A stretch of DNA of 64,000 nucleotides, taken from assembly GCF_026340565.1 (NCBI RefSeq), contig NZ_JAPEPB010000001.1, positions 4,812,501-4,876,500 of the forward strand, read 5' to 3'. This DNA comes from Kitasatospora sp. NBC_01287. Lineage in GTDB: Bacteria > Actinomycetota > Actinomycetes > Streptomycetales > Streptomycetaceae. This document shows positions 43,887-57,443 of the stretch, one piece after another. The translations under genes were made by a program, and so were the position numbers. The notes under the pieces were generated by a model that searched no databases, was not told where the DNA came from, and saw only the letters and a program-made list of their open reading frames with translations. The stretch's first letter is position 1, and every line of letters starts with the position of its first letter.

Positions 43887-44945
43887 TCAGCACGGCTCGC
43901 GCCACGCGTCCAGGTTGAGGTGCTTCTCCATCGAGCTGAGCTGGAGCTGCTTGGACTGCGCGCAGTACTGGCTGTTCGGCACGTTGTACTCGACGTGCAG
44001 CACCGCCTTGCCCTGCTTGATGAAGGGCGTCAACCCGTCGCACTCCTGGAACTCCGCGCACTGCTCGTCGACGGAGAAGTCGAAGTAGTCGACCAGCTGC
44101 GGGACCTGGTCCACGTCGTTCTTGAGTGCGACGGCCAGGCCGCGCTGATGGGCCAGTTGGGCGATCATCTTGTTGTAGGCGAGCTGGTCGTCGGCGGTGA
44201 CCGGGAAGCCGGAGTTGTTGGAGTAGGCCTCCAGCAGGTCGGGTTCGACCGCGTCGAAGCCCTTCTCCTTGCACATGTCGAAGCGCTTGGCCAGCAGTGG
44301 CTGCAGCACGCTGATCTGCCGGATGTCGAACCACTTCTCGCCCTTCCAGCCGTCGCTGGAGCCGAGCACGGAGCTGGGGAAGGACGAGGCGTCGGGGCGG
44401 AAGCTCTCCCAGGCACCGACGTTGATGTAGCAGATCACCTTGCGGCCCTTGGCGTGCAACGAGGCGACCACCGAGGCGTCGTTCTCGAAGCCGTCGATGT
44501 CGTAGACCGGCGCGTCCACGGACTGGTCGACGGTGCCGCTGAGTTGCCACTGCCAGCTGGTGCCGGGGGCGGGGTGCCACAGGGCCTGGCCCGGGCCGCC
44601 CGGCGAGGCGGGCCCGGTGGCCGGCGCGGACGCGGGGTTCGACGCAGGTGCCGGTGAGGCCGACCCCGACGGCGCGGGCGGCGCGGACGGCGAGTGGGTA
44701 CCGGCGCCCGGGGCGGAGGCGCTCGGGGCCGCGCTGGGTGAGCTGCTCGGCGACCCGGCGTCCGACGGGCCGGCGGAGGGACTCGGCTGCGCGGTGGGCG
44801 AGTTCGGCGCGCTGGTGGCCGGCGCAGGCGCGGGCGACTGCGAGTCGTCATCGCCTCCGCCGCTGGAGCAGGCGCTCGCGAACAGGCCGGTGGTCAGGGT
44901 CAGGGCCGCCAGCAGGGCAGCGGTACGACGGGTCACTGCGGGCAC
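43887..44945 (-). CDS. GH114-type endo-alpha-1,4-polygalactosaminidase lipoprotein
   Basis: A 352-residue lipoprotein. A signal peptide with lipobox (TTGLFASACSSGGG, Cys at 26) is followed by a Ser/Pro/Ala-rich linker to about 115 and a GH114 catalytic domain. The domain shows WQWQLSGTVDQSVDAPVYDI, then DGFENDASVVASLHAKGRKVICYINVG-type strands, WESFRPD, GFDAVEPDLLEAY and LKNDVDQVPQLVDYFDF, with acidic residues at strand ends. GH114 enzymes cleave alpha-1,4-galactosamine polymers and are related to the hydrolase domain of PelA. It is the last gene of the polysaccharide operon, overlapping the previous gene by 13 bases, and probably trims or releases the product at the cell surface. Confidence 0.88.
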   Translation of the reverse strand: MPAVTRRTAALLAALTLTTGLFASACSSGGGDDDSQSPAPAPATSAPNSPTAQPSPSAGPSDAGSPSSSPSAAPSASAPGAGTHSPSAPPAPSGSASPAPASNPASAPATGPASPGGPGQALWHPAPGTSWQWQLSGTVDQSVDAPVYDIDGFENDASVVASLHAKGRKVICYINVGAWESFRPDASSFPSSVLGSSDGWKGEKWFDIRQISVLQPLLAKRFDMCKEKGFDAVEPDLLEAYSNNSGFPVTADDQLAYNKMIAQLAHQRGLAVALKNDVDQVPQLVDYFDFSVDEQCAEFQECDGLTPFIKQGKAVLHVEYNVPNSQYCAQSKQLQLSSMEKHLNLDAWREPC

Positions 44946-45742
44946 TCCAGGTGCGTCGGCTTCGATGGTGGAGTGGCGGGGTTTCCCGTGGCGGCGGGTG
45001 GCGGCACCACCAGCGCGAGCTGTGCCGGTGGTGTCTGTGGTGCGGGTGGTGCGGGTGGTGCGTCGGCGGTGCCGAGGCCGTAGGGCAGCTCGCTCCAGGG
45101 GTTGGTGCCCGACCCGGGGACCGCGCAGCCCACGCCGGCCCGGCGGGAGGCGAGCAGCGCGCCCGCCGCCTCGGCCCGCTCGGCCGGGACCCCGTAGACC
45201 AGGTGGCAGAACCGCTCGGCCGGGTGGTGACCCGTCCAGAGCGGCAGCACCAGGGCATCGTACTCGCTCCAGCTGCCCTCGAAGGTCACCAGGACGTCAC
45301 CCAACTCGTGCCCGGCGAAGGATGGTTCGGGGTGCACGCCGTGGCCGAGCACGACCAGCTCGCAGCCGGCCGCGCGGGCCGCGGTGGTCAGCCGGCGATA
45401 GTGCGCCAGCGCGGCCTGGTGGGCCGCGGCCTGGTCGAAGTACACCCCCGTGGTGCCGTACCACTGGCGGTGGTTCAGCACCTCGGCGACGACCTCGGCG
45501 TGCGGGCGGCGGCCGTAGCCGGTGTCCACGTAGCCCAGCAGCGGGATGCCGGCCCCGGCGAGCTCGGCGGCGGCCTGGACGAAGGCCTGGTCGGGCTCGG
45601 GGCCCGGGCCGTTGGCGACGTTGAGCACCACGGCCCGGACCCGCTCGGGGCCGGCGGCCGCGACCGCCTGCCAGGCCGCCGGGTCCACCGCGGGGTGGAC
45701 GTACAGCGGCACCAGCAGGCGGGCCGCGGAAGTGCTGTTCAT
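44933..45742 (-). CDS. Spherulation-specific family 4 (spherulin-4-like) protein
   Basis: A 269-residue TIM-barrel-like protein. The family pattern is LLVPLYVHPAVDPAAWQAVA, then VLNVANGPGPEPDQAF, GIPLLGYVDTGYGRRPHAEV and GVYFDQAA. The spherulin-4 family was named from a slime-mould protein and is distantly related to GH114/GH135 glycosidases acting on galactosaminogalactan, so an alpha-galactosaminidase role is plausible. No signal peptide is visible; it is probably cytoplasmic or exported by another route. The C-terminal 50 residues are Pro-rich. Its start overlaps the stop of the epimerase gene (ATGA), so translation is coupled. Confidence 0.82.
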   Translation of the reverse strand: MNSTSAARLLVPLYVHPAVDPAAWQAVAAAGPERVRAVVLNVANGPGPEPDQAFVQAAAELAGAGIPLLGYVDTGYGRRPHAEVVAEVLNHRQWYGTTGVYFDQAAAHQAALAHYRRLTTAARAAGCELVVLGHGVHPEPSFAGHELGDVLVTFEGSWSEYDALVLPLWTGHHPAERFCHLVYGVPAERAEAAGALLASRRAGVGCAVPGSGTNPWSELPYGLGTADAPPAPPAPQTPPAQLALVVPPPAATGNPATPPSKPTHLECPQ

Positions 45743-46644
45743 CGGTGGTCGGCCGCCGGTGGCTCGGCGGACACACTGGCCCAGAGGTCGCGCAGACTCT
45801 GCTCCAGCGGGATCAGGGGCTGCCAGCCGAGCGTCCGCCCGGCCAGCGAGATGTCCCCCTGGTGCCAGGAGACGGAGGCCGAGCGGTCCGAACCGGCTCC
45901 CGTCTCCTCGATCCGGCCGGTGAACCCGGCCGCCGCCACCAGGCCCTCGGCGATCGCCCGGACGGGCTGCGCCCGGCCGCCGGCGACGTTGAGGATGCGC
46001 GGCAGCGGCTCCGTGGACAGCGCGGCGGCGACCACCGCCGAGGCGACGTCGCGGGCGTCCACGAAGTCGCGGTAGGCGGACAGGTCACCGACCGTGACCA
46101 CCCCGCCGGGGTGGGCGGCCAGCTCGGCCGCCAGCCGCCCGGGCAGCGAGGCCGCCGAGGCGCCCGGGCCGACCGGGTTGAAGACCCGCAGCGAGACCGC
46201 GTCCAGTGCGGACTCGGCCACCGCCAGGGTCCCGGCCAGCTTGGTCGCCCCGTAGATGCCGGTCGGGCGCGGCAGGTCCCGCTCGCTCAGCGAGCTGCCG
46301 TACTCGGCCGGGCCGTACTCGCCGGCCGAGCCCAGATGGATCAACCGGGCCTTGGGCAGCCCGAGTTCCAGCGCCTCGACGAGCATCGCCGGACCCCGGG
46401 CGTTGACCTCGCTCTGGTGCCGGGCGCCACCGGCCACCGCACCCGCGCAGTTGACCACGAGCTGGGGCCCCAGGCGCCCCAGCTCGGCGGCCAGTGGCTC
46501 GACCTGATCGATCGTCAGGTCGAGGCGCAGGTCGTGGGACGGACGGCGGCCCGCGGTCGCCAGTTCGGCGTCCGGCAGCTCCCGCAGGGCGGCGGCGATG
46601 TGCTGCCCGAGGAAGCCGTCCGCACCCAGCAGCAGGATCCTCAC
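45739..46644 (-). CDS. NAD-dependent sugar epimerase/dehydratase (extended SDR)
   Basis: A 301-residue extended short-chain dehydrogenase. The NAD fold opens VRILLLGADGFLGQHIAAAL. The catalytic pair is in RPTGIYGATKLAGTLAV (Tyr-x3-Lys), with a Ser in HLGSAGEYGP. SLRVFNPVGPG follows, as in sugar-nucleotide epimerases. It would epimerise or reduce a nucleotide sugar. The start is GTG 46644, whose first bases overlap the TGA of the nucleotidyltransferase gene (GTGA); the much longer frame upstream is a shadow of that gene. It is coupled on both sides within the polysaccharide operon. Confidence 0.87.
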   Translation of the reverse strand: MRILLLGADGFLGQHIAAALRELPDAELATAGRRPSHDLRLDLTIDQVEPLAAELGRLGPQLVVNCAGAVAGGARHQSEVNARGPAMLVEALELGLPKARLIHLGSAGEYGPAEYGSSLSERDLPRPTGIYGATKLAGTLAVAESALDAVSLRVFNPVGPGASAASLPGRLAAELAAHPGGVVTVGDLSAYRDFVDARDVASAVVAAALSTEPLPRILNVAGGRAQPVRAIAEGLVAAAGFTGRIEETGAGSDRSASVSWHQGDISLAGRTLGWQPLIPLEQSLRDLWASVSAEPPAADHR

Positions 46645-47471
46645 GCGGCCCGCCCGTCCGCCGCGCCGACCGGGGCGGCTTCGGTCGGGTCCAGCTCGAT
46701 GGCCTCCTCCGCCACGCCGGTGGCCGCCCGGGAGAGCTCGTTCAGCGAGCGCTCGGTGCGGTCGTCCCGCAGTAGCAGCGAACGGCGCGCGGCGAACTCG
46801 GCGTTGGCCCGGTCGTAGTCGTCGGGCCGGCCGATGTCCAGCCAGTAGCCGTTGAACTCGTAGGCCGACGGCGGGGTCCGGGCCGCGAGCAGGTCCAGGA
46901 CCAGCTCGTCGAAGCCCAGCGGCAGCCCGGGCGTGTAGCTGGTCAGCGCGGCCCGCGAGACGCCGTAGACGCCCATCGAGACGCGGTAGTCCATGCTCGG
47001 CTTCTCCCGGAAGCCGGTGATGGTGCCCGCCTCGGTGGTCAGCACCCCGAAGTCGATCTTGACCTCGCGCGCGTAGGTCGCGATGGTCAGCGGCGCCTTG
47101 GACGCCTCGTGGTGCTTCAGCACCCCGGCGAAGTCCAGGTCGGTGAGGATGTCGCCGTTCATCACCAGGAAGTGCTCGGGCAGCCGGTCGAGCATGGTCA
47201 GCAGCGGGCCCATCGTGCCCAGCGGCGTGTCCTCGACGGCGTAGCCGACCCGCAGCCCCCACTGCGAACCGTTGCCGACGTAGGCGCGGATGATGTGGCC
47301 CAGGTGCCCGATGGCGAGCGTGACGGTCTTGAAGCCGGCCGCGGCCAGCTGACGCATCACGATCTCCAGGATGGCGTGCTGGTCGCCGATCGGGACCAGC
47401 GGCTTGGGCAGGGCGGTGGTGTAGGGCCGGAGCCGGACGCCCTTGCCCCCGGCCAGAATCACTGCGTGCAT
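46641..47471 (-). CDS. Sugar-phosphate nucleotidyltransferase (NTP-transferase family)
   Basis: A 276-residue enzyme that joins a sugar-1-phosphate to a nucleotide. The signature is MHAVILAGGKGVRLRPYTTA, then PKPLVPIGDQHAILEIVM, followed by VMNGDILTDLDF with the metal-binding Asp, and FREKPSMDY with YWLDIGRPDDYDRA at the end. This pattern is shared by glucose-1-phosphate thymidylyl-/mannose-1-phosphate guanylyl-type enzymes, so the exact nucleotide and sugar are not set. The start is ATG 47471, six bases after GGGGGAG. It follows the LegB-like dehydratase by 59 bases and is coupled to the epimerase gene. Confidence 0.9.
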   Translation of the reverse strand: MHAVILAGGKGVRLRPYTTALPKPLVPIGDQHAILEIVMRQLAAAGFKTVTLAIGHLGHIIRAYVGNGSQWGLRVGYAVEDTPLGTMGPLLTMLDRLPEHFLVMNGDILTDLDFAGVLKHHEASKAPLTIATYAREVKIDFGVLTTEAGTITGFREKPSMDYRVSMGVYGVSRAALTSYTPGLPLGFDELVLDLLAARTPPSAYEFNGYWLDIGRPDDYDRANAEFAARRSLLLRDDRTERSLNELSRAATGVAEEAIELDPTEAAPVGAADGRAA

Positions 47472-47530
47472 GGTGGTCTCCCCCACGATTTGAGGTGGAC
47501 GTGCTCAGACGAAGTTGATGTTGGACGGGC

Positions 47531-48523
47531 TCACACGTTGTACAGGTCGGTCTTGTAGCGTGCCAGGTTGGCCGGGTCGCGGAAGAAGGCGATGGTCTTC
47601 TCCAGGCCCGCCTCCAGCGAGTGCGCCGGCGCCCAGTCGGTGGCCGCGCGCAGCCGGCTGGCGTCGGCGACCAGGCGCATCACCTCGGAGTTGGCCGGCC
47701 GCAGGCGCTGGGTGTCCTCGCGGACGCTCAGCTCGACCTCCATCAGCTTGCCGACCAGGGTGACCAGGTCGCCGACCGAGATCTCGCCGCCGGTACCGGC
47801 GTTGAAGGTGCGGCCGACCACGGTCTCGGCCGGCGCGGTGCCCACCGCGTGGAAGGCCGCGGCGGTGTCCTTGACGAACATGAAGTCGCGGGTGGGCCGC
47901 AGGTCGCCCAGGGTGATCTCCCGCGTCCCGGCGGCGATCTGCGCGATCACGGTCGGGATCACGGCCCGCATCGACTGGCGCGGGCCGAAGGTGTTGAACG
48001 GCCGCAGGGTGACCACCTGGGTCTCGAAGCTGGCGTGGTAGGAGTCCGCCAGCCGGTCCCCGCCCGCCTTGGAAGCGGCGTACGGGGACTGGGTGTTGAT
48101 CGGGTGGTCCTCGGTGATCGGTACGGTCTGCGCGGTGCCGTAGGTCTCACTGGTCGAGGTGTGCACCAGCCGCGGGACGTCCAGGTGGCGCACCGCCTCC
48201 AGCACGTTGAGGGTGCCGCTGACGTTGGTGTCGATGTAGGAGTGCGGGGCCTGGTAGGAGTACGGGATGGCGATCAGCGCGGCCAGGTGGTAGACGGCCT
48301 CGGTGCCCTTGACCAGGCCGTTCACCGATCCGGGGTCGCGCACGTCGCCGAGGACGATCTCCACCGAGTCGAGCGTGTCCGAGTCAAGCGTCTCCAGCCA
48401 GCCGAAGCTGGAGAACGAGTTGTACTGGACCATGGCGCGCACCCGGTGCCCGTGGGCGACCAGGTGCTCGGTCAGGTGGGAGCCGATGAATCCCTCGGCG
48501 CCGGTGACTGCGACAGTGCTCAT
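47531..48523 (-). CDS. NAD-dependent 4,6-dehydratase, LegB-like (UDP-GlcNAc type)
   Basis: A 330-residue extended SDR. It contains VAVTGAEGFIGSHLTEHLVA (NAD fold), HTSTSETYGTAQ, SPYAASKAGGDRLADSYHAS (Tyr-x3-Lys), LRPFNTFGPRQSMRAVIPT and DLRPTRDFMFVKDTAAAF. This combination is that of the LegB family, which converts a UDP-N-acetylhexosamine to a 4-keto-6-deoxy sugar in legionaminic/bacillosamine-type pathways. It supports an amino-sugar precursor for the operon's product. The start ATG 48523 has AGAAGG upstream at slightly long spacing. The 109 bases before it contain short GTGCGGTCAGT repeats. Confidence 0.88.
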   Translation of the reverse strand: MSTVAVTGAEGFIGSHLTEHLVAHGHRVRAMVQYNSFSSFGWLETLDSDTLDSVEIVLGDVRDPGSVNGLVKGTEAVYHLAALIAIPYSYQAPHSYIDTNVSGTLNVLEAVRHLDVPRLVHTSTSETYGTAQTVPITEDHPINTQSPYAASKAGGDRLADSYHASFETQVVTLRPFNTFGPRQSMRAVIPTVIAQIAAGTREITLGDLRPTRDFMFVKDTAAAFHAVGTAPAETVVGRTFNAGTGGEISVGDLVTLVGKLMEVELSVREDTQRLRPANSEVMRLVADASRLRAATDWAPAHSLEAGLEKTIAFFRDPANLARYKTDLYNV

Positions 48524-48632
48524 GTCGGGGAACTGCCTTCTCTGTGTGGTGTGGTGGCAGGGAATCAGTGCGGGTGCGGTCAGTGTGCGGTCAGTGGTGC
48601 GGGTGCGCTGTGGTGCGCTGTGGCGCTCGTGC

Positions 48633-50138
48633 TCAGCGGTGCCGGGTGGTGCGGCCGAGGACGATCACGGCCAGGGGGACCAGCAGCGCGGCGGCTGCTC
48701 CACAGCCGTACAGCTGGACTCTGGTCGGATCGCCGCCGATCAGCAGAACGGTGCTCTCGAACCCGGCCGCCGCGAGGCAGAGGCCGGCGGTACGCCAGGC
48801 GACCGACAGCGCCTGCAGCAGCAGTGCCGTCCACAGGGTGGCGGCGAGCAGCAGGAGTGCGGCCAACTGGGTCGGACCGATCAAGGGGGCGTGTGCCCAG
48901 AGGGCGGTGCCCGCGTAGTCCAGCGCGGCCACCGCGAGCAGGTAGCCGAGCAGGCAGCCGAGCAGCACCAGGGCGGTGCGGCGGCGGAAGTCGCCCGGAC
49001 TGGTGCTGATCCGCAGCGCCGTGGTGGCCAGGCTCCGGTAGCGGTAGAGCAGCCACTCGGCCAGGCCCAGGCTCAGGGTGAGCGCGACCAGGGCAGGCCC
49101 GGTGGCGTTCGCGCCCGGCGAGGGCGGCGCGTCCGGGTGCACGGCGTGGTGCAGGGTCGGGCCGAGACCGGCGATCATGGTCAGCGTGCCGACCGCGAGC
49201 CCGAACAGCCCGGAGGCGGCGGTGGCCGACCAGGCGGGCCCGGCCGGACCGGAGCCGTCGCCACTGAGGCAGCGGTGGAGCTGCTGAGCGGCCAGGCCCA
49301 CCGCGGCGGCCAGGGTGGCCAGCAGGATCGCCGCCTTCGCCCAGCCGGGCAGCGGGACCAGGCGCACCAGCACCGCGCCCGCCGCGGACGGCGTCAGCGC
49401 CGCCAGCAGCAGCTTCTCCTGGCCGAGCACCAGCAGCACGGTGGCCGCGCCCAGGTAGGCGGACTGCCCGATGGTGAACAGTAAAGCCGCCAGCGGGCCG
49501 CCGATCAGCCAGCCGGCGCCCGCCGCCAGCAGCGCGCCCAGCGGCGCGCCCACCGCCAGGGTGCGGGCCGCCGAGCGGCGGTCGGCCAGGCTCAGCCAGC
49601 CGTACGCCCGGTGCGCCAGGGCCTGGTTGAAGGCCCAGCTCAGCAGGGTCGCGGCGGCCAGCGCGGCCATCCCCGAGGGCAGGCCGAAGCGCGTCCGGTT
49701 CGCGGCGAAGAGGCCGGCGCCCAGCAGGTAGCCGAGCCCGGGCAGGGCGAAGACCAGCCCGCGCAGCACGCAGCGCCACGGGTCCGCCCGCCAGGGGTCG
49801 GTGGCGGCCGGGGGCGGGCCCGGGTAGCGGCGGGCGACCTTGGCGAACAGGTCCTCGGCCAGCGTGAAGGCGTCGGCCCGGCCGTAGACCAGCGCGGCCT
49901 GCTCGTCGGTCAGGCCGTCCGACTCCAGGAACGCGGCGATCTCGTAGGGGTGCACCGCGTCGGCGCACAACTCGGCGAGCCGCTCTGCCAGGTCGTCCAA
50001 GGGGTCCGGGGAGAGCTCGGGCAGGGCAGGGGTCGAGGCAGGCCGGGGACGGCGGCGCGGCAGGGTGCGCAGGAGCATCGTCTCCTCCGCCCAGCCGGGG
50101 GTCCCCTCGTCGGGGACCAGGCGCAGCGGCCCGCTCAT
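48633..50138 (-). CDS. Polytopic membrane protein of the polysaccharide operon
   Basis: A 501-residue protein: a cytoplasmic N-terminal part of about 130 residues (DPLDDLAERLAELCADAVHP, then YEIAAFLESDGLTDEQAALVYGR), then ten to twelve hydrophobic helices to the C-terminus. Recognisable transporter motifs are absent. By position, start overlapping the stop of the PelF-like gene (ATGA), it should carry out the membrane step: lifting or exporting the polymer, the task done by PelG and its partners in pel systems. It has no clear PelG (MATE-like) signature, so it may be a different exporter or a regulatory membrane subunit. Ala/Leu content is very high. Confidence 0.7.
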   Translation of the reverse strand: MSGPLRLVPDEGTPGWAEETMLLRTLPRRRPRPASTPALPELSPDPLDDLAERLAELCADAVHPYEIAAFLESDGLTDEQAALVYGRADAFTLAEDLFAKVARRYPGPPPAATDPWRADPWRCVLRGLVFALPGLGYLLGAGLFAANRTRFGLPSGMAALAAATLLSWAFNQALAHRAYGWLSLADRRSAARTLAVGAPLGALLAAGAGWLIGGPLAALLFTIGQSAYLGAATVLLVLGQEKLLLAALTPSAAGAVLVRLVPLPGWAKAAILLATLAAAVGLAAQQLHRCLSGDGSGPAGPAWSATAASGLFGLAVGTLTMIAGLGPTLHHAVHPDAPPSPGANATGPALVALTLSLGLAEWLLYRYRSLATTALRISTSPGDFRRRTALVLLGCLLGYLLAVAALDYAGTALWAHAPLIGPTQLAALLLLAATLWTALLLQALSVAWRTAGLCLAAAGFESTVLLIGGDPTRVQLYGCGAAAALLVPLAVIVLGRTTRHR

Positions 50139-51598
50139 GCGGCCCCCTCGGCCGCGGGCTGCAGCACCGTCAGACCGGTGTTCTCGTCGTTCTTCTCACC
50201 CAGCAGTTCGGCGTAGATGCCGCGGAAGGCGTCGATGGTCTGGCGCAGCGTGAACTGCTCGACCACCCGGATCCGGGCGCCGGCGCCCATCACCGCCCGG
50301 CGCTCGGGATCGCGCAGCAGTTCGAGGGCGGCCCGCGCCATCGGCTCGGGCTCGCGCGGCGGCACCACCAGTCCGGTGTCGCCCACCGCTTCGCGCACCC
50401 CGCCGACATCGGTGGAGACGGTGGCCCGCCCCGAGCTCATCGCCTCGATCAGGGTGAACGGGAAGCCCTCGCTGATGCTGCTGAGCATCACGATGCTGCC
50501 GGCCGCGTACGCGTCCTTGATCTCCTCGACCCGGCCCTCGAAGACCACCGAGTCGGCCAGGCCCAGCTCGGCCGCGAGCGCGATGCAGCCGTCGCGGTAG
50601 CCCTCGGCACCGCGCGCGGTGCCGCCGAACAGGCGCAGCCTGGCCTCGGGCAGCTCGGCCTTGACGATCGCGAAGGCGCGGATCAGGGTCTCCAGGTCCT
50701 TGATCGGGTCGACCCGGCCCGCCCAGCTCATGGTGGGCAGCTCGGGCTCGGGCCCGGCGGCCGGGAAGAGTTCGGGGTCGACCCCGTTGTAGACGGTGCG
50801 GATGTTCTCGGAGGGCGTGCCACCGCGCTCCTCCCAGCGCCGGTTGTACCGGTTGCCGGGGGTGACCAGGGCGGCGCGCGCGTAGCTCTCCTCGGCGAGC
50901 ATCCGGTAGAAGCCGAGCAGCAGCGCCTTGACCGGCCAGCGGTAGGGCCCGGTGCGGTAGCCGAGGTAGCGCTCGCGCAGGTAGATGCCGTGCTCGGTGA
51001 GCAGGAACGGCACGTTGTGCTGCTGGGCCGCTATCAGCCCGGGCAGCGCGGCCAGGCCGCCGCTGACCGCGTGCGTCACCCCGTCGCTCGGCACCTCGAC
51101 CACCAGCGGGCGCAGCGCGTGCTCCAGCAGGTCGGTGGCGTGCAGGGCGTCGTGCAGGGTGGGCTCGGCGGCGGCGGTGGACAGGTAGGGGCGGTGCCAG
51201 ACCTGCTGCAGGGTGCGCAGCGCCCCCTCGCTGCGCAGCGCCGGGGCGAGCAGGCCGCGCCGGGCGAAGTCGGCGAAGCCGTACAGCTCGGTGCCGAAGT
51301 GGGTGGCGTAGACCGGGTCGAGGACGGAGTGCAGGAAGCGCTCGTAGGCGTCCAGGAAGCGGCGGAGCTCGCGGCCGCGCGGCGGCTTGCCGGGCAGCGG
51401 CGGCCCCCACAGCGGTGCGGTGGTGACCGTGCGGACCTGGCGGGGCAGCTCCCAGGCCAGCGGCTCGCTGCCGGTGCCGGTCACCGCGATGATGTCGAAC
51501 TCGACGTCGGGCATGCCCTGGACGAGTTGGTCGCACCACACACTGACGCCGCCATGCGCGTGCGGGTACGTCCCCTCGGTGAGCAAGGTGACTCGCAT
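50135..51598 (-). CDS. pelF: GT4-family glycosyltransferase, PelF-like (DUF3492)
   Basis: A 487-residue cytoplasmic glycosyltransferase. The N-terminus RVTLLTEGTYPHAHGGVSVW is the hallmark of DUF3492/PelF proteins, as is LTEHGIYLRERYL mid-way. The C-terminal GT-B half has MSWAGRVDPIKDLETLIRAF, then the donor-binding EGFPFTLIEAMSSGRATVST (E-x7-E) and VGDTGLVVPPRE. PelF polymerises from a UDP-sugar on the cytoplasmic side in pel systems. The start ATG 51598 is after AGGGAAG. Two strong hairpins lie between it and the upstream deacetylase gene. Its stop overlaps the next gene by four bases. Confidence 0.88.
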   Translation of the reverse strand: MRVTLLTEGTYPHAHGGVSVWCDQLVQGMPDVEFDIIAVTGTGSEPLAWELPRQVRTVTTAPLWGPPLPGKPPRGRELRRFLDAYERFLHSVLDPVYATHFGTELYGFADFARRGLLAPALRSEGALRTLQQVWHRPYLSTAAAEPTLHDALHATDLLEHALRPLVVEVPSDGVTHAVSGGLAALPGLIAAQQHNVPFLLTEHGIYLRERYLGYRTGPYRWPVKALLLGFYRMLAEESYARAALVTPGNRYNRRWEERGGTPSENIRTVYNGVDPELFPAAGPEPELPTMSWAGRVDPIKDLETLIRAFAIVKAELPEARLRLFGGTARGAEGYRDGCIALAAELGLADSVVFEGRVEEIKDAYAAGSIVMLSSISEGFPFTLIEAMSSGRATVSTDVGGVREAVGDTGLVVPPREPEPMARAALELLRDPERRAVMGAGARIRVVEQFTLRQTIDAFRGIYAELLGEKNDENTGLTVLQPAAEGAA

Positions 51599-51622
51599 CT
51601 TGCTTCCCTTCCCCCCAAATCG

Positions 51623-51690
51623 GCTGCGCCCGGTGGCGGCCGGGCGCAGCGCCGGTACGGGCCGCGCGGGGTCGCCGCGCGGCCCGTACC
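51623..51690 (-). terminator. Two consecutive hairpins between deacetylase and PelF-like genes
   Basis: On the minus strand, a perfect 16-base stem (51654-51669 with 51675-51690, five-base loop) is followed by a perfect 11-base stem (51623-51633 with 51640-51650, six-base loop), 25 bases before the PelF start. They may terminate, attenuate or stabilise the upstream transcript. Confidence 0.7.
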
Positions 51691-51791
51691 GCCGCGTTGT
51701 GGTGCCGGTGGTACGCGTGGAGCTAGTTGGTACTGGACTTGCTTGCCTTGCGGTGGTGCGTGGTGCCTCAGGTGGCGCCTTGCTTGCTGAC

Positions 51792-54032
51792 CTACTTGGT
51801 GCCGGCCGGCACCAGGGACTTGCCCTTGGTGCGCTGGGTGTCACCGGGACCGACCGGGACGGCCTTGGCGGTGCCGGCCGGGACGGTGGTCTTCGGCGCC
51901 TTGGCGGTCTTCTGGGCCGCGGTGGCGGCCGCGTTGACCGTGGCGGCCGGAGCCTTGACCGAGCTCGGCGCCGCCGCGGCGGCCAGCTGCAGGGTCACCG
52001 AGCCCTGGAAGGTCCCGGGGGAGACCCAGCCGGAGAGCGAACCGGCGTAGGCGGTGCCGAAGGCCGAGCTGCCGAGCAGCTGCTGCTGGGTGGTGCCGGT
52101 CGGCATGGTGGCCTCGACCTGCACCCCGGAGGGCGCCTGCACGGTGACCGTGTTGCCGATCCGGTACGCGGTGACCTGGCCGGCCGCGACAGCCGCGTTC
52201 CAGGCGGAACGCTTCTGCAGCTCGGTGCCGATCGCGCTCTCGCGCAGGTTCACGATCGGGGTGTTCGCCGCGTAGAGGCTCTTGTACGTGCCGAGGATCG
52301 AGTTGAGCACCGGGTAGGCGATCTGGTCCTCGGCGAAGTTGGACTGGTGGATGAAGTTCGGCCGCGGGTCGTTGTTCATCACGTAGCCGAGGTCGATCTT
52401 GGTCTGCATCGGCACGATGTACGAGGCGTACCCGGTGGTGGTGTCCAGCGCGGCCGGCAGGCAGGTGGAGTTGCCCGAGGTCTCGCAGATCCCACTGCCG
52501 CCGTTGGCCTTGCTGGTGTAGATCCAGTTGTACTCGTCCACCTCCTCGTTGGTGTGGCCCGCGTTGTAGAACACGTTCATCGGGTAGCGCGGCACGGTCA
52601 GCGTGGAGCTGCCGACGGCGCGCTGGTTCGGCTCGCGGGAGGCGTCCGAGCCGGTCCACTTGATCCCGTTGGCGGCCAGCGCGGGCGCCAGGTTCGGGTT
52701 GTCGGTGGGCTGCTGCGGCAGCGTCACCAGGCCCGAGTGCTCACCGGTGATCAGCTCGCTCGGGTCGGTCGGCAGACCCTGCTGCTTGGCCCAGGCGGTG
52801 TTCTCGGAGATCTCGGTCTGGATGGTGTTCTCGTCCACCCACTGGGTGTTGCCGCTCGTGTCGGTGGAGCAGACCCACGGCACCACGGTGACGTTCTGGA
52901 CGCAGCCCAGGAACGGGTGGTCCCAGGTGTGGTTGATGAACCGGAACGAGCTGGAGTTCGCCTTGAAGGCGGTCAGCAGCGGGTCGGTGGTGGTGTTGTT
53001 GTCCGACTCCCAGTCGGCGCTGCCGCCGCCGTTGAAGGCGAAGTCGAGGGTGAAGTTGTTGGCCTTCTCCCACGCCACCACGGTGTTGACGTCCGACGGG
53101 GTCATCCGGATCGGGTCGTTGTCGGTGTTGTTGCTCCCCGGCGGGCAGGTGACGTCACCGGGGGTGCACTTGAGCGTGGTGTCCCAGCGGTCGTCGGAGA
53201 GGAACAGGTCGTCCACGTGGACCGCGAAGTAGTTGCGGTCGTAGCCGAGGTGGATGCCCTGGGTCAGCCAGTCCACGAAGCCGCGGGCCAGCAGGCGGTA
53301 CTGCTGCTGGTACTGGTTGTAGACGAAGGTGACCACCAGCTCCTTGCGGCTGTCGTGGTCGTACTCGCCGACCAGCGAGCCGCGCGAGCCGGTGCCCGGG
53401 ATCGGCGCGTCCACCAGGGGGGTGAACGAGGCGCCGGTGGGCAGTGCGGCCGAGGCCAGCGGGGTGGCCAGGTACCCGTAGCTGGTGGAGACCCCGGGCT
53501 CCGGCTGCTCGAACGGCACGTTGCCGCTGAGGTAGCCGAACGGCCCGGACAGGCCGGCCGTGGTGACGGCGCCCTGGGTGCCGTCCAGCGAGCCGATGTA
53601 GCCCGGGTTCTGCGCCCAGTTGAGGCCCACGTTGGGGTTGGCGTAGGTGTAGGCGTCGATCTGGCGGATGCCGAAGGTGGCCTCGTAGGAGGCGAGCGCG
53701 GTCATCTCGGCGGAGCCGGTGCCGAACGGGTTCTCGTTGGGCAGCACGACGCCCTGGAACTTCGCCCGGGGGGCGCCGTTCACGGTGTCGCTGAGGTAGC
53801 CGGCGGTGATCGTCGGACGGTTCGGGTCCGACAGCTTCACCACGGTGTACGGGGTGCCCTCACTGGCGAGTTCGGCGGTGATCGCGGCGGTGGCGGGACC
53901 GCCGTCGTCGACCACCAGCACGGTGAGGTCGATTCGGTTCTGTACCGCCGCGAAGGCGGTCGAGGTCTGCAGTCCGGCAGCCAGCAGACCGGCTGCCGCG
54001 CAGGCGGCAGCACGACGGGTCGCTCGACCCAT
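51792..54032 (-). CDS. Secreted polysaccharide deacetylase-like (CE4-type) protein
   Basis: A 746-residue exported protein with a signal peptide at residues 1-29 (ending STAFA). An N-terminal domain (about 30-250, RIDLTVLVVDDGGPATAAIT) resembles a Rossmann-like module. A CE4-like deacetylase region follows: YFAVHVDDLFLSDDRWD (about 270-286, Asp pair) and FINHTWDHPFLGC (about 365-377), matching the DD and H-(S/T)-x2-(D)H motifs. Later strands include GEHSGLVTLP and NFIHQSNFAED. The C-terminus (about 600-746) is an Ala/Lys/Thr-rich tail. By analogy with the deacetylase half of PelA it would deacetylate the exported amino-sugar polymer. The start ATG 54032 has GGAGG nine bases upstream. Confidence 0.75.
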   Translation of the reverse strand: MGRATRRAAACAAAGLLAAGLQTSTAFAAVQNRIDLTVLVVDDGGPATAAITAELASEGTPYTVVKLSDPNRPTITAGYLSDTVNGAPRAKFQGVVLPNENPFGTGSAEMTALASYEATFGIRQIDAYTYANPNVGLNWAQNPGYIGSLDGTQGAVTTAGLSGPFGYLSGNVPFEQPEPGVSTSYGYLATPLASAALPTGASFTPLVDAPIPGTGSRGSLVGEYDHDSRKELVVTFVYNQYQQQYRLLARGFVDWLTQGIHLGYDRNYFAVHVDDLFLSDDRWDTTLKCTPGDVTCPPGSNNTDNDPIRMTPSDVNTVVAWEKANNFTLDFAFNGGGSADWESDNNTTTDPLLTAFKANSSSFRFINHTWDHPFLGCVQNVTVVPWVCSTDTSGNTQWVDENTIQTEISENTAWAKQQGLPTDPSELITGEHSGLVTLPQQPTDNPNLAPALAANGIKWTGSDASREPNQRAVGSSTLTVPRYPMNVFYNAGHTNEEVDEYNWIYTSKANGGSGICETSGNSTCLPAALDTTTGYASYIVPMQTKIDLGYVMNNDPRPNFIHQSNFAEDQIAYPVLNSILGTYKSLYAANTPIVNLRESAIGTELQKRSAWNAAVAAGQVTAYRIGNTVTVQAPSGVQVEATMPTGTTQQQLLGSSAFGTAYAGSLSGWVSPGTFQGSVTLQLAAAAAPSSVKAPAATVNAAATAAQKTAKAPKTTVPAGTAKAVPVGPGDTQRTKGKSLVPAGTK

Positions 54033-55459: not shown

Positions 55460-56350
55460 TCAGCTCTCGCTGGTCAGGCCCTCGCGCAGCTGGGTGAGGG
55501 TGCGGGTGAGCAGCCGGGAGACGTGCATCTGGGAGATGCCGATCTCGTCGCCGATCTGGGACTGGGTCAGGTTGCCGAAGAAGCGCAGCATGATGATCCG
55601 CCGCTCCCTGGGCGGCAGCTTGGCCAGCAGCGGCTTGAGCGACTCGCGGTACTCCACGCCCTCCAGCGCCAGGTCCTCGTAGCCCAGGCGCTCGGCCAGG
55701 GGTCCGTCGCCGTCCTCGTCGCCGGGCGTCGAGTCCAGCGAGCTCGCGGTGTAGGCGTTGCCGACGGCCAGGCCCTCGACCACGTCCTCCTCGCTGACCC
55801 CCAGGCAGACCGCCAGCTCCGCCACGGTGGGGGAGCGGTCCAGCCGCTGGGCGAGCTCGTCGCCGGCCTTGGTGAGGGCCAGCCGCAGCTCCTGGAGCCG
55901 CCGGGGCACCCGGACCGACCAACTGGTGTCCCGGAAGAAGCGCTTGACCTCGCCGACCACGGTGGGCATCGCGAAGGTCGGGAACTCCACCCCGCGGTCC
56001 GGGTCGAACCGGTCGATCGCCTTGATCAGGCCGATCGTGCCGACCTGGACGATGTCCTCCATCGGCTCGTTGCGGCTGCGGAACCGGGCCGAGGCGTAGC
56101 GCACCAGCGGCAGGTTCAGCTCGATCAGGGTGTCCCGGACGTAGGTGTGCTCGGGGGTGCCGGCCTGCAGCGTGGCCAGCCGGCGGAAGAGCGAGCGGGA
56201 GAGCGTGCGGGTGTCCAGGCCCGGCGCCGCGGTCGGCTCGGGGACGGGCGGCGGCGGGACGGCGGGCGCCACGGCCGCCGCCTGCTCCGGAGCGTGCTCG
56301 GCCACCGCCGTACCACCGTGGATCTCTGCGCTGCCCAGCTCTGCGGACAT
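55460..56350 (-). CDS. Group 3 sigma factor (SigB/SigF family), second of a tandem pair
   Basis: A 296-residue alternative sigma factor. A Pro/Ala-rich N-terminus precedes region 2 ([20 protein letters not shown], then [20 protein letters not shown]), region 3 ([18 protein letters not shown]) and region 4 ([40 protein letters not shown]). This is the SpoIIAC/SigB/SigF type, normally held by an RsbW-like anti-sigma factor. The start is ATG 56350 with AAGGGGG upstream. It is a clear paralogue of the next upstream gene. In Streptomyces this family controls osmotic stress and spore maturation. The matching anti-sigma gene is not adjacent. Confidence 0.92.
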
Positions 56351-56522
56351 GCACCCACCCCCTTGTGACTGGTCCAACGGGAGCCTCCGCTCGGCGGTTC
56401 CCCGGTGCGCGCCGAGTGATCGGCGTCCCCCAACCGCTTGCTTACCGGAACCGCGAGCACGGCAAACCCGAACATCGCGAGTTGTCACGTGGCAGTAACG
56501 CGCAGCGATGCCCGGGTCCTGC

Positions 56523-57443
56523 TCACTCGTCCCAGTTGTTGCCGGTGCGCAGCCTGGTGAGGATGCGCGTGAGGAGGCGGGAGACGTGCATCTGGGACAT
56601 GCCGAGCTCGTTGGAGATCTGGGACTGCGTCAGGTTGGCGAAGAAGCGCAGCATCACGATCCGCCGCTCGCGCTCGGGCAACTGCACCAGCAGGTGCCGG
56701 ACCATGTCGCGGTGCTCCACGTCGGTCAGCGCGGAGTCCTCGTAGCCGAGCCGGTCGAGCAGCGCCAGGCCGCCCTCGTGCTCCTGGGCGGCCTCCAGGG
56801 AGGCGGCGTTGTAGGCGCGCCCGGCGTCCAGGCAGGCGCGCACGTCCTCCTCGGGGATGCGCAGGTTGGCGGCGATCTCGGGGACCTTGGGGGTGCGCCC
56901 GTGCAGCACCGTCAGCTCCTCCATCGCGCCGCTCACCTGCACCCAGAGCTCCTGCAGCCGGCGCGGGACGTGCATGGTGCGGACGTTGTCCCGGAAGTAG
57001 CGCTTGATCTCCCCCAGGATGGTGGGCAGCGCGTAGGTGGGGAACTGCACGCCGCGGCTGGGGTCGAACCGGTCGATCGCGTTGATCAGGCCGATGGTGC
57101 CGACCTGGACCACGTCCTCCATCGGCTCGTTGCGGCTGCGGAACCGGGTGGCGGCGTAGCGCACCAGCGGGATGTTGACCTCGATCAGCGCGGCCCGCAC
57201 CTGCTCGCGTTCGGGGGCCTGGGCGGGCAGCTCGGCCAGCCGCTCGAAGAGCACCCGGGTCAGCGTGCGCACGTCGATCGGGCCCGGGGCGCCGTGCTCC
57301 TCGGTGCGCGCCTCCTCGGCCCGCGGGCCGGGGGTGGGGGTGGGAGCGGCGCCGGTCACCGCGGTGGTGGTCGCGGCGCCCGGGTCGGGCCCGGCCTCGG
57401 GACCGCCCGTGCCGGTGTCCGGCGTATCGTCCTGGATCCGCAC
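56523..57443 (-). CDS. Group 3 sigma factor (SigB/SigF family), first of a tandem pair
   Basis: A 306-residue alternative sigma factor closely related to the downstream gene. Region 2 is [20 protein letters not shown], then [20 protein letters not shown]; region 3 is [20 protein letters not shown]; region 4 is [20 protein letters not shown], then [20 protein letters not shown]. The 55-residue N-terminal extension is Thr/Pro/Ala-rich and differs from its neighbour. The start is GTG 57443 with GGAGGG ten bases upstream. The 172 bases between the two genes suggest separate promoters. The tandem arrangement looks like a local gene duplication. Confidence 0.92.

Follow-up and report, generated by a model that had tools for sequence, protein, structure and literature searches.

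Bacterial operons that contain a homologue of agd3, the deacetylase gene of the fungal galactosaminogalactan (GAG) cluster uge3-sph3-ega3-gtb3-agd3 (PMC4817252), have been known from bioinformatics since 2020 (Bamford et al. 2020, PMC7229062). According to that paper, agd3 lies in or near operons of carbohydrate-active enzymes in 30 of 35 bacterial species, all identified bacterial agd3 operons encode a cytoplasmic glycosyltransferase (GT) and a multi-spanning membrane protein, and GH114 is a highly consistent member. It reports spherulin-4 from the agd3 operons of some Actinobacteria and Agd3 homologues from Deinococcus-Thermus, and its discussion mentions galactosamine polysaccharides in Streptomyces walls. 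A third system that bears comparison is the Gram-positive Pel operon pelDEADAFG of Bacillus cereus (PMC7112168, PMC13254593). Here we describe an eight-gene operon from Kitasatospora sp. NBC_01287 which lies in a stretch of 64,000 nucleotides, called the window below (positions 4812501-4876500 of a 9.49 Mb genome).

The operon is an instance of the agd3 operon kind: an Agd3 homologue, a cytoplasmic GT and a multi-spanning membrane protein are encoded in the same putative operon, together with GH114 and spherulin-4. An earlier note, made from the bare sequence, had suggested an undescribed polymer system, which was too strong. New here are the fold of the exporter, the split into two lineages (A and B) and the absence of a leader from the spherulin-4 protein (GH135). 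Section 13 of PMC7229062 describes none of these and no three-gene sugar module; the eight-gene form may be drawn in its figures or supplements. Among the papers listed in searches of the open-licence literature there was no experimental study of the operon for Streptomyces, Kitasatospora or Deinococcus.

We propose, with a probability of roughly 0.7, that this is an exopolysaccharide operon which works like Pel and fungal GAG, a polysaccharide of mould biofilms, and produces a galactosamine-type polymer. The PelF-family GT would polymerise an alpha-1,4-linked N-acetylhexosamine, most likely N-acetylgalactosamine (GalNAc), in the cytoplasm, and a membrane protein with MOP fold would carry the chain across the membrane, the role of PelG. 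A secreted Agd3-type enzyme would then strip part of the N-acetyl groups, leaving a cationic, sticky polymer, and GH114 would cut de-acetylated stretches outside. The leaderless GH135 may act on the fully acetylated chain at the cytoplasmic side, either in length control or in clearing stalled chains. In lineage A a nucleotidyltransferase, a LegB-like short-chain dehydrogenase/reductase (SDR) and a second SDR would provide one more nucleotide sugar, which may be a 6-deoxy-hexosamine.

All eight open reading frames (ORFs) are on the minus strand, from 54032 down to 43887 in window coordinates. In 5' to 3' order they are:

54032-51792, minus strand: Agd3-type (CE18-like) polysaccharide de-N-acetylase, 746 residues, with a CBM87-like N-terminal domain and a signal-like N-terminus
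51598-50135, minus strand: PelF-family GT4 glycosyltransferase, 487 residues, the predicted cytoplasmic polymerase
50138-48633, minus strand: polytopic membrane protein, 501 residues, predicted polymer exporter with 12 membrane helices in the model and MOP fold
48523-47531, minus strand: LegB-like extended SDR, 330 residues, possible nucleoside diphosphate (NDP)-sugar 4,6-dehydratase
47471-46641, minus strand: sugar-1-phosphate nucleotidyltransferase, 276 residues
46644-45739, minus strand: second extended SDR, 301 residues, 4-ketoreductase or 4-epimerase
45742-44933, minus strand: GH135 (spherulin-4/Sph3-like), predicted cytoplasmic endo-alpha-1,4-N-acetylgalactosaminidase without signal peptide
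44945 (or 44936)-43887, minus strand: GH114 (Ega3-like), predicted endo-alpha-1,4-galactosaminidase with a lipoprotein-like N-terminus

Strand, gene order and kinds of domain are as the earlier note had them, and its overlaps of 4-13 bases were found at four of the seven junctions: 4 bases each at PelF/membrane protein, nucleotidyltransferase/SDR and SDR/spherulin-4, and 4 or 13 bases, set by the choice of start, at spherulin-4/GH114. The coordinates leave gaps of 193, 109 and 59 bases at the others. Third-position G+C is 92-98% in seven of the frames; the frame of the second SDR, which was read from a far-upstream start, is outside this list. The arrangement is more than chance because the same gene order recurs in other genomes.

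The first support for the proposed reading comes from the deacetylase. Its structure was predicted because a sequence-profile search of the PDB had given no credible match. The AlphaFold model (pLDDT 79.5) matches Agd3 (PDB 6nwz) with a Foldseek E-value of 4.4e-29 and, in a VIA comparison, with Z 29.0 (546 residues aligned at 2.9 A, spanning model residues 31-691); lower values were obtained for heparan N-deacetylase (Z 23.5) and PelA (Z 13.2). For the reported Agd3 active-site residues D377, D378, H510, H514, R613 and H668, the counterparts in the window protein are D274, D275, H368, H372, R482 and H562, so that the CM1-CM4 residues of Agd3, assigned by motif and order without superposition, are found together with its three-domain fold. 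These six candidate residues are invariant in all 41 rows of the alignment (the window and 40 of 79 loci from the survey described below). The alignment columns are a better measure of motif conservation than regular expressions, which over 79 deacetylases found CM1 in 48, PRYPMN in 47 (both patterns too strict) and HQSN in 76. The window deacetylase is below the Pfam cut-offs and has only sub-threshold matches to Agd3; at E up to 1, Agd3_CE matches 14 of 15 homologues (best 1.8e-6) and CBM87 matches 11 of 15 (best 2.5e-4). By Foldseek and VIA the first gene, originally called deacetylase-like in a Pel context, does code for a predicted deacetylase, one that is Agd3-like instead of PelA-like. 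It most likely belongs to the CE18/Agd3 family, with a predicted de-N-acetylase activity on alpha-1,4-GalNAc chains.

Both hydrolases have sequence matches to the fungal enzymes. GH135 scores 109.6 bits with Pfam Spherulin4 and matches Sph3 (5c5g) at 7.9e-11; D103 and E155 occur in all 76 rows (window and 75 loci) and are aligned with the Asp and Glu of 5c5g, the pair being placed by alignment and not mapped to published residue numbers. GH114 scores 277.6 bits with Pfam Glyco_hydro_114 and matches Ega3 (6ojb) at 1.9e-54, its E234, D236 and E294 being kept throughout the 67 rows (the window plus 66 loci); a lipobox-like sequence is seen by eye in the window protein. Pel in native or re-N-acetylated form is a substrate of recombinant Ega3, Sph3 and Agd3 (PMC9135694); it is an alpha-1,4-linked chain of galactosamine and GalNAc, here GalN(Ac). 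This activity, the Ega3 and Sph3 matches with their conserved acid residues, and the Agd3 structure match with its invariant candidate active-site residues argue for a galactosamine-type polymer. The idea that PelA functions are split over several proteins stands in so far as deacetylase and hydrolases are separate; the enzymes themselves are of GAG type and resemble the fungal cluster more than PelA.

The fungal cluster also has SDR sugar enzymes in common with the locus. It differs in having a putative transmembrane GT, Gtb3, where the locus has a soluble PelF-family GT4 and a separate MOP protein (PMC4817252), and in its Sph3, which is described as membrane-anchored (PMC8647848, PMC12054363) while the GH135 of the locus has no leader. 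The first-strand motif of GH135 is found in 76 of the 77 loci with spherulin-4 and starts at residue 2-19 in the 72 with displayed position. A simple hydropathy test, which is not a signal-peptide predictor, found a hydrophobic segment of 15 residues within 60 in-frame codons upstream in none of the 76 loci with the motif. The RefSeq starts for Streptomyces californicus and Kocuria agree with a leaderless protein, and an internal contrast is provided by a second spherulin-4 on the contig of locus L032 (6833-7441), which has a signal-like N-terminus. The missing leader would place GH135 in the cytoplasm, opposite GH114. Fungal Sph3 prefers the fully acetylated polymer and Ega3 the de-acetylated one (PMC9135694, PMC12054363), and these preferences would suit a GH135 that acts in the cytoplasm before deacetylation and a GH114 that acts outside after it.

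The GT scores 169.1 bits against the NCBIfam PelF model NF038011 (cut-off 100) and 193 bits against Pfam DUF3492, both on the ORF read from 51844, which bears out its first naming as a PelF-like GT4. It was aligned with eight PelFs from Pel operons. In a tree of 34 GTs these eight, which are PelG-linked, fall into a single long-branched group (100/100) that excludes the GTs of the loci. The expectation of PelF kinship holds for the family model, yet not for clustering with the PelG-linked group. The tree is used for the split between groups alone, with no claim to an ancestral order or to a single clade of PelF-named proteins. Rooting with six other GT4s from the same genome was rejected; these sat on long branches, and four stood beside the Pel group at 99/98, a placement that the tree program itself marks as doubtful.

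Could the locus be a Pel locus in the strict sense, of the pelDEADAFG type, in which PelG, PelD and PelE have diverged past recognition? The PelF family, the MOP-fold membrane protein and the adjoining deacetylase and hydrolases fit this explanation, and the Bacillus cereus operon, as far as described (PMC7112168, PMC13254593), shares a PelF-family GT, a MOP-fold membrane protein and a separate three-domain deacetylase. However, the PelG model PF16933 is silent in 61 of 61 relatives, the own genome included, while the control Thermotoga maritima was detected, and hhalign of 41 membrane proteins against eight PelGs gave a probability of 0.1%, so that the agreement with PelG is in fold class only. 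PelD had no match in Pfam scans of the eight operon and five flanking genes; a search of the own genome had none either, but no control matched in that search, and it says nothing for or against PelD. Given the PelG results, the separate grouping of the PelG-linked PelFs and a deacetylase far nearer to Agd3 than to PelA, we regard a strict Pel locus as unlikely.

The membrane protein, once described as an unrelated-looking exporter, is less isolated than that. No Pfam or NCBIfam family matched it; six Pfam families appeared in one of 41 members each (best E 0.018) and were taken as chance. The AlphaFold model has a mean pLDDT of 84.7, residues 1-42 being low, and consists of 12 helices in MOP fold, the fold of the MATE/Wzx/MurJ superfamily, with an additional N-terminal helical module at about residues 45-105 ahead of it; a pattern for this module is present in 79 of 80 membrane proteins. 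VIA gave Z values up to 21.2 for MATE proteins (MATE1; 4.7 A over 353 residues), up to 16.6 for WzxE and up to 13.8 for MurJ. All of the first 48 VIA rows are MATE, MOP, WzxE or MurJ except one titled 'protein A', and the next family, an MFS transporter, follows at Z 6.8. PelG is reported to be a 12-helix MOP protein (PMC13254593). By its predicted structure the membrane protein has the fold of this superfamily, without detectable sequence similarity to PelG; homology to PelG was tried as an explanation and found no support from the profile search or hhalign. PelF family and MOP fold together, as reported for PelG, argue for synthesis and export of a polymer.

WzxE and MurJ among the structural matches would also suit a lipid-linked, Wzx-like pathway in which the MOP protein flips an oligosaccharide, made by the GT and the sugar genes, for transfer onto teichoic acid or protein, with the hydrolases in remodelling. 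Such a pathway has to make do with a single GT, and it does not account for three enzymes whose kin act on polymeric alpha-1,4-GalN(Ac). The scan of five flanking genes showed no polymerase, initiating transferase or ligase, though no search for them was made elsewhere in the genome, and we consider this pathway quite improbable.

Conservation was studied in a scan of a genome collection with an alignment of the membrane protein (A1), from which the best 80 of 430 relatives, termed the 80 loci, were all examined. Among these loci, the nearest relative of the window's membrane protein comes from Kitasatospora (86%), and the membrane protein is far from universal within this genus. The trio agd3-pelF-membrane protein is found in 79 of the 80 loci; in the other, agd3 would fall past the contig end. 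All eight genes are present in 30 loci (one with an extra LegB-like gene), and the expectation that they are conserved together has thus held. Another 36 loci have the five-gene form agd3-pelF-membrane protein-spherulin-4-GH114, and 14 are partial, seven of them cut by contig ends. In a tree of PelF with 80 rows (the window and 79 loci, one short row dropped), 35 rows with the three nucleotide-sugar genes form lineage A and 45 rows without them form lineage B, each being one group at 100/100. Outside the 80 loci, the lineage A locus L031 showed no agd3 match. Streptomyces chryseus has one locus of each lineage (L093, L108), and the same is true for three other genomes (G057, G143, G101).

A sample of 148 genomes from the class was analysed as well. 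It contains agd3 in 10 genomes and the membrane protein in 12, with a strong match (E at most 1e-16) in eight. All eight strong genomes have agd3, while the four weak ones have loci of another kind without agd3 (type C, see below). In the agd3 genome G128 the order is agd3-pelF-442-residue polytopic protein-spherulin-4-GH114; in another (G009), a contig of 5 kb begins inside the membrane protein homologue, so that pelF is out of view.

The gene set also occurs on plasmids. Linear plasmids of Streptomyces californicus carry all eight genes (L123, L142; of four matching records, two were opened), and in L123 the set lies between genes for nonribosomal peptide synthetases. A mobilizable plasmid of Kocuria rosea has the five-gene form, with transposase genes on both sides. 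Plasmid pDFI1 of Deinococcus ficus has the order pelF-membrane protein-SDR-nucleotidyltransferase-oxidoreductase-agd3-GH114-GH114. Its sugar genes are 66% (LegB-like), 62% (nucleotidyltransferase) and 43% (second SDR) identical to those of the window, and the identity is 43% for PelF, 33% for the membrane protein, 26% for Agd3 and 38% for the second GH114. Plasmid pTB1 of Thermus brockianus has agd3-pelF-membrane protein-a protein of 234 residues-GH114. Nine plasmid records from outside Streptomyces have an Agd3 match; among the four opened, that of Burkholderia stagnalis has no GT beside agd3. The synteny in 79 of 80 loci, the similar sets in Kocuria, Deinococcus and Thermus, and agd3 in 8 of 8 strong class genomes speak for a functional unit as proposed.

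The own genome has three more agd3 paralogues (G000:C1:1928387, 8295623 and 2119088-2121769; L134, L135 and L136), none with a pelF match in its 19-kb stretch. One is a protein of 1194 residues with Ig-like domains that adjoins a GH8-like protein. Such free-standing paralogues, and the action of Ega3, Sph3 and Agd3 on GAG or Pel (PMC9135694, PMC12054363), might point to an offensive or scavenging role, in which the secreted deacetylase and GH114 are aimed at fungal GAG or at the polymer of other bacteria and the GT is incidental. With agd3, pelF and the membrane protein gene kept together as a rule, and a GH135 without leader in 76 of 76 loci, unfit for attack on an outside polymer, this is very unlikely.

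Several observations weigh against the proposed galactosamine-type exopolysaccharide operon. The position of the locus GTs outside the PelG-linked group means that their substrate is not assured, and the hhalign result against PelG does not favour a PelG-like role. PelD and PelE are reported as required for Pel synthesis (PMC13254593), and no counterpart of either was found among the scanned genes, in which no PelE model was used. Foldseek backs the MOP fold only modestly (best match 4mlb, E 3.2e-4, TM 0.42/0.45, the sole match under 0.001), and the MurJ value is within the range of unrelated helical models, since the VIA tool notes a best Z of 14 as typical for helical models that have no clear kin. 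In the deacetylase, CM1 and CM2 are 93 residues apart, compared with over 120 in Agd3, and a hydrophobic N-terminus is found in just 73 of 79 Agd3s. In the position that follows the aligned Asp, GH135 has Gln in all 76 rows and Sph3 has Glu, and because of this exchange the activity may be altered. A lipobox-like pattern is present in just 44 of 67 GH114s (here, as for the Agd3s, starts were chosen by script). GH114 itself is absent from seven of the partial loci despite sufficient room, and of 11 agd3 loci beyond the 80-locus set, 5 have it and 6 lack it.

The nucleotide-sugar supply had been taken as built into the system; it is present at the locus and confined to lineage A. The LegB-like SDR scores 451 bits against TIGR04180, below the curated cut-off of 475. 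It keeps TSTSExYG in 35 of 35 loci, and the Glu of this motif is more in keeping with a 4,6-dehydratase than with a simple 4-epimerase. Among the nearest solved chains, dehydratases stand beside epimerases and decarboxylases, so that a firm call as dehydratase was dropped. The nucleotidyltransferase matches Pfam NTP_transferase at 1.7e-36, and its nearest solved chain is mannose-1-phosphate guanyltransferase beta (2e-28). The second SDR, first called an epimerase, does match Pfam Epimerase (5.3e-28, scanned from 46632), while its nearest solved chains are GDP-6-deoxy-hexose reductases (1.9e-14, 5.5e-14), followed by MoeE5 and a putative epimerase; as these are of several kinds, a firm call as epimerase or reductase was also dropped. 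On these similarities, the product of the module would most likely be a nucleotide-linked 6-deoxy-hexosamine, a reading on which the absence of the module from lineage B weighs.

Lineage A might even produce a second, chemically distinct polymer, a copolymer of alpha-linked GalNAc/GalN and 6-deoxy-hexosamine supplied by a nucleotidyltransferase-dehydratase-reductase trio, with the N-terminal module of the exporter replacing PelD/PelE and cytoplasmic GH135 trimming the chain before export. We offer this only tentatively. The sugar module is common to Kitasatospora and Deinococcus ficus, and both lineages are found together in some Streptomyces. At L137 (10243-13267; genome G095), the same nucleotidyltransferase and second SDR have as neighbours a UDP-glucose/GDP-mannose dehydrogenase and a further SDR, and a protein with a sub-threshold GH114 match comes next; this may be another sugar variant.

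Type C loci are paralogues with the order pelF-membrane protein-SDR-spherulin-4; a ThiF/rhodanese gene is their neighbour in L036 and L040, the two loci annotated. They share with the operon a homologous GT, the N-terminal part of the membrane protein, an SDR and GH135, and nine stretches of 20 kb held no match to agd3, GH114, the LegB-like gene or the nucleotidyltransferase. The genome of the window has its own copy (G000:C1:3687440 region; L036, 8246-11809), in which pelF-membrane protein-SDR stand beside the ThiF/rhodanese gene. By alignment, its GT is missing the KD-motif Lys as well as the two Glu residues of E-x7-E, and no spherulin-4 match was found; this copy may be degenerate. SCO5174-SCO5177 of Streptomyces coelicolor are presumably type C genes, judging by gene numbers and the adjoining moeB-like SCO5178 (PMC4340878), not by a comparison of sequences. 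For the second mycelium, SCO5174, SCO5175 and SCO5177 are listed as upregulated (log2 2.2 to 3.8; PMC3610822), and an SCO5174 mutant makes less actinorhodin (PMC6585502).

Five genes flanking the operon were scanned and look unrelated to it. Those on one side code for an aldo/keto reductase and an NlpC/P60 protein, those on the other for a tyrosine phosphatase and two sigma factors of the sigma-70 family. The sigma factor genes form a tandem pair at 55460-57443, upstream of the operon past the opposite-strand tyrosine phosphatase gene, and are possible regulators of it.

If the galactosamine-type reading is true, filamentous actinomycetes make a cationic polymer like GAG or Pel, with possible consequences for adhesion and the formation of pellets, and the pathway would be a simpler bacterial version of the fungal one. 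A review of GAG from 2019 states that the contribution of the membrane-localised hydrolase Sph3 to synthesis was not known (PMC8647848). The leaderless bacterial GH135 makes a role of this family at the cytoplasmic side directly testable.

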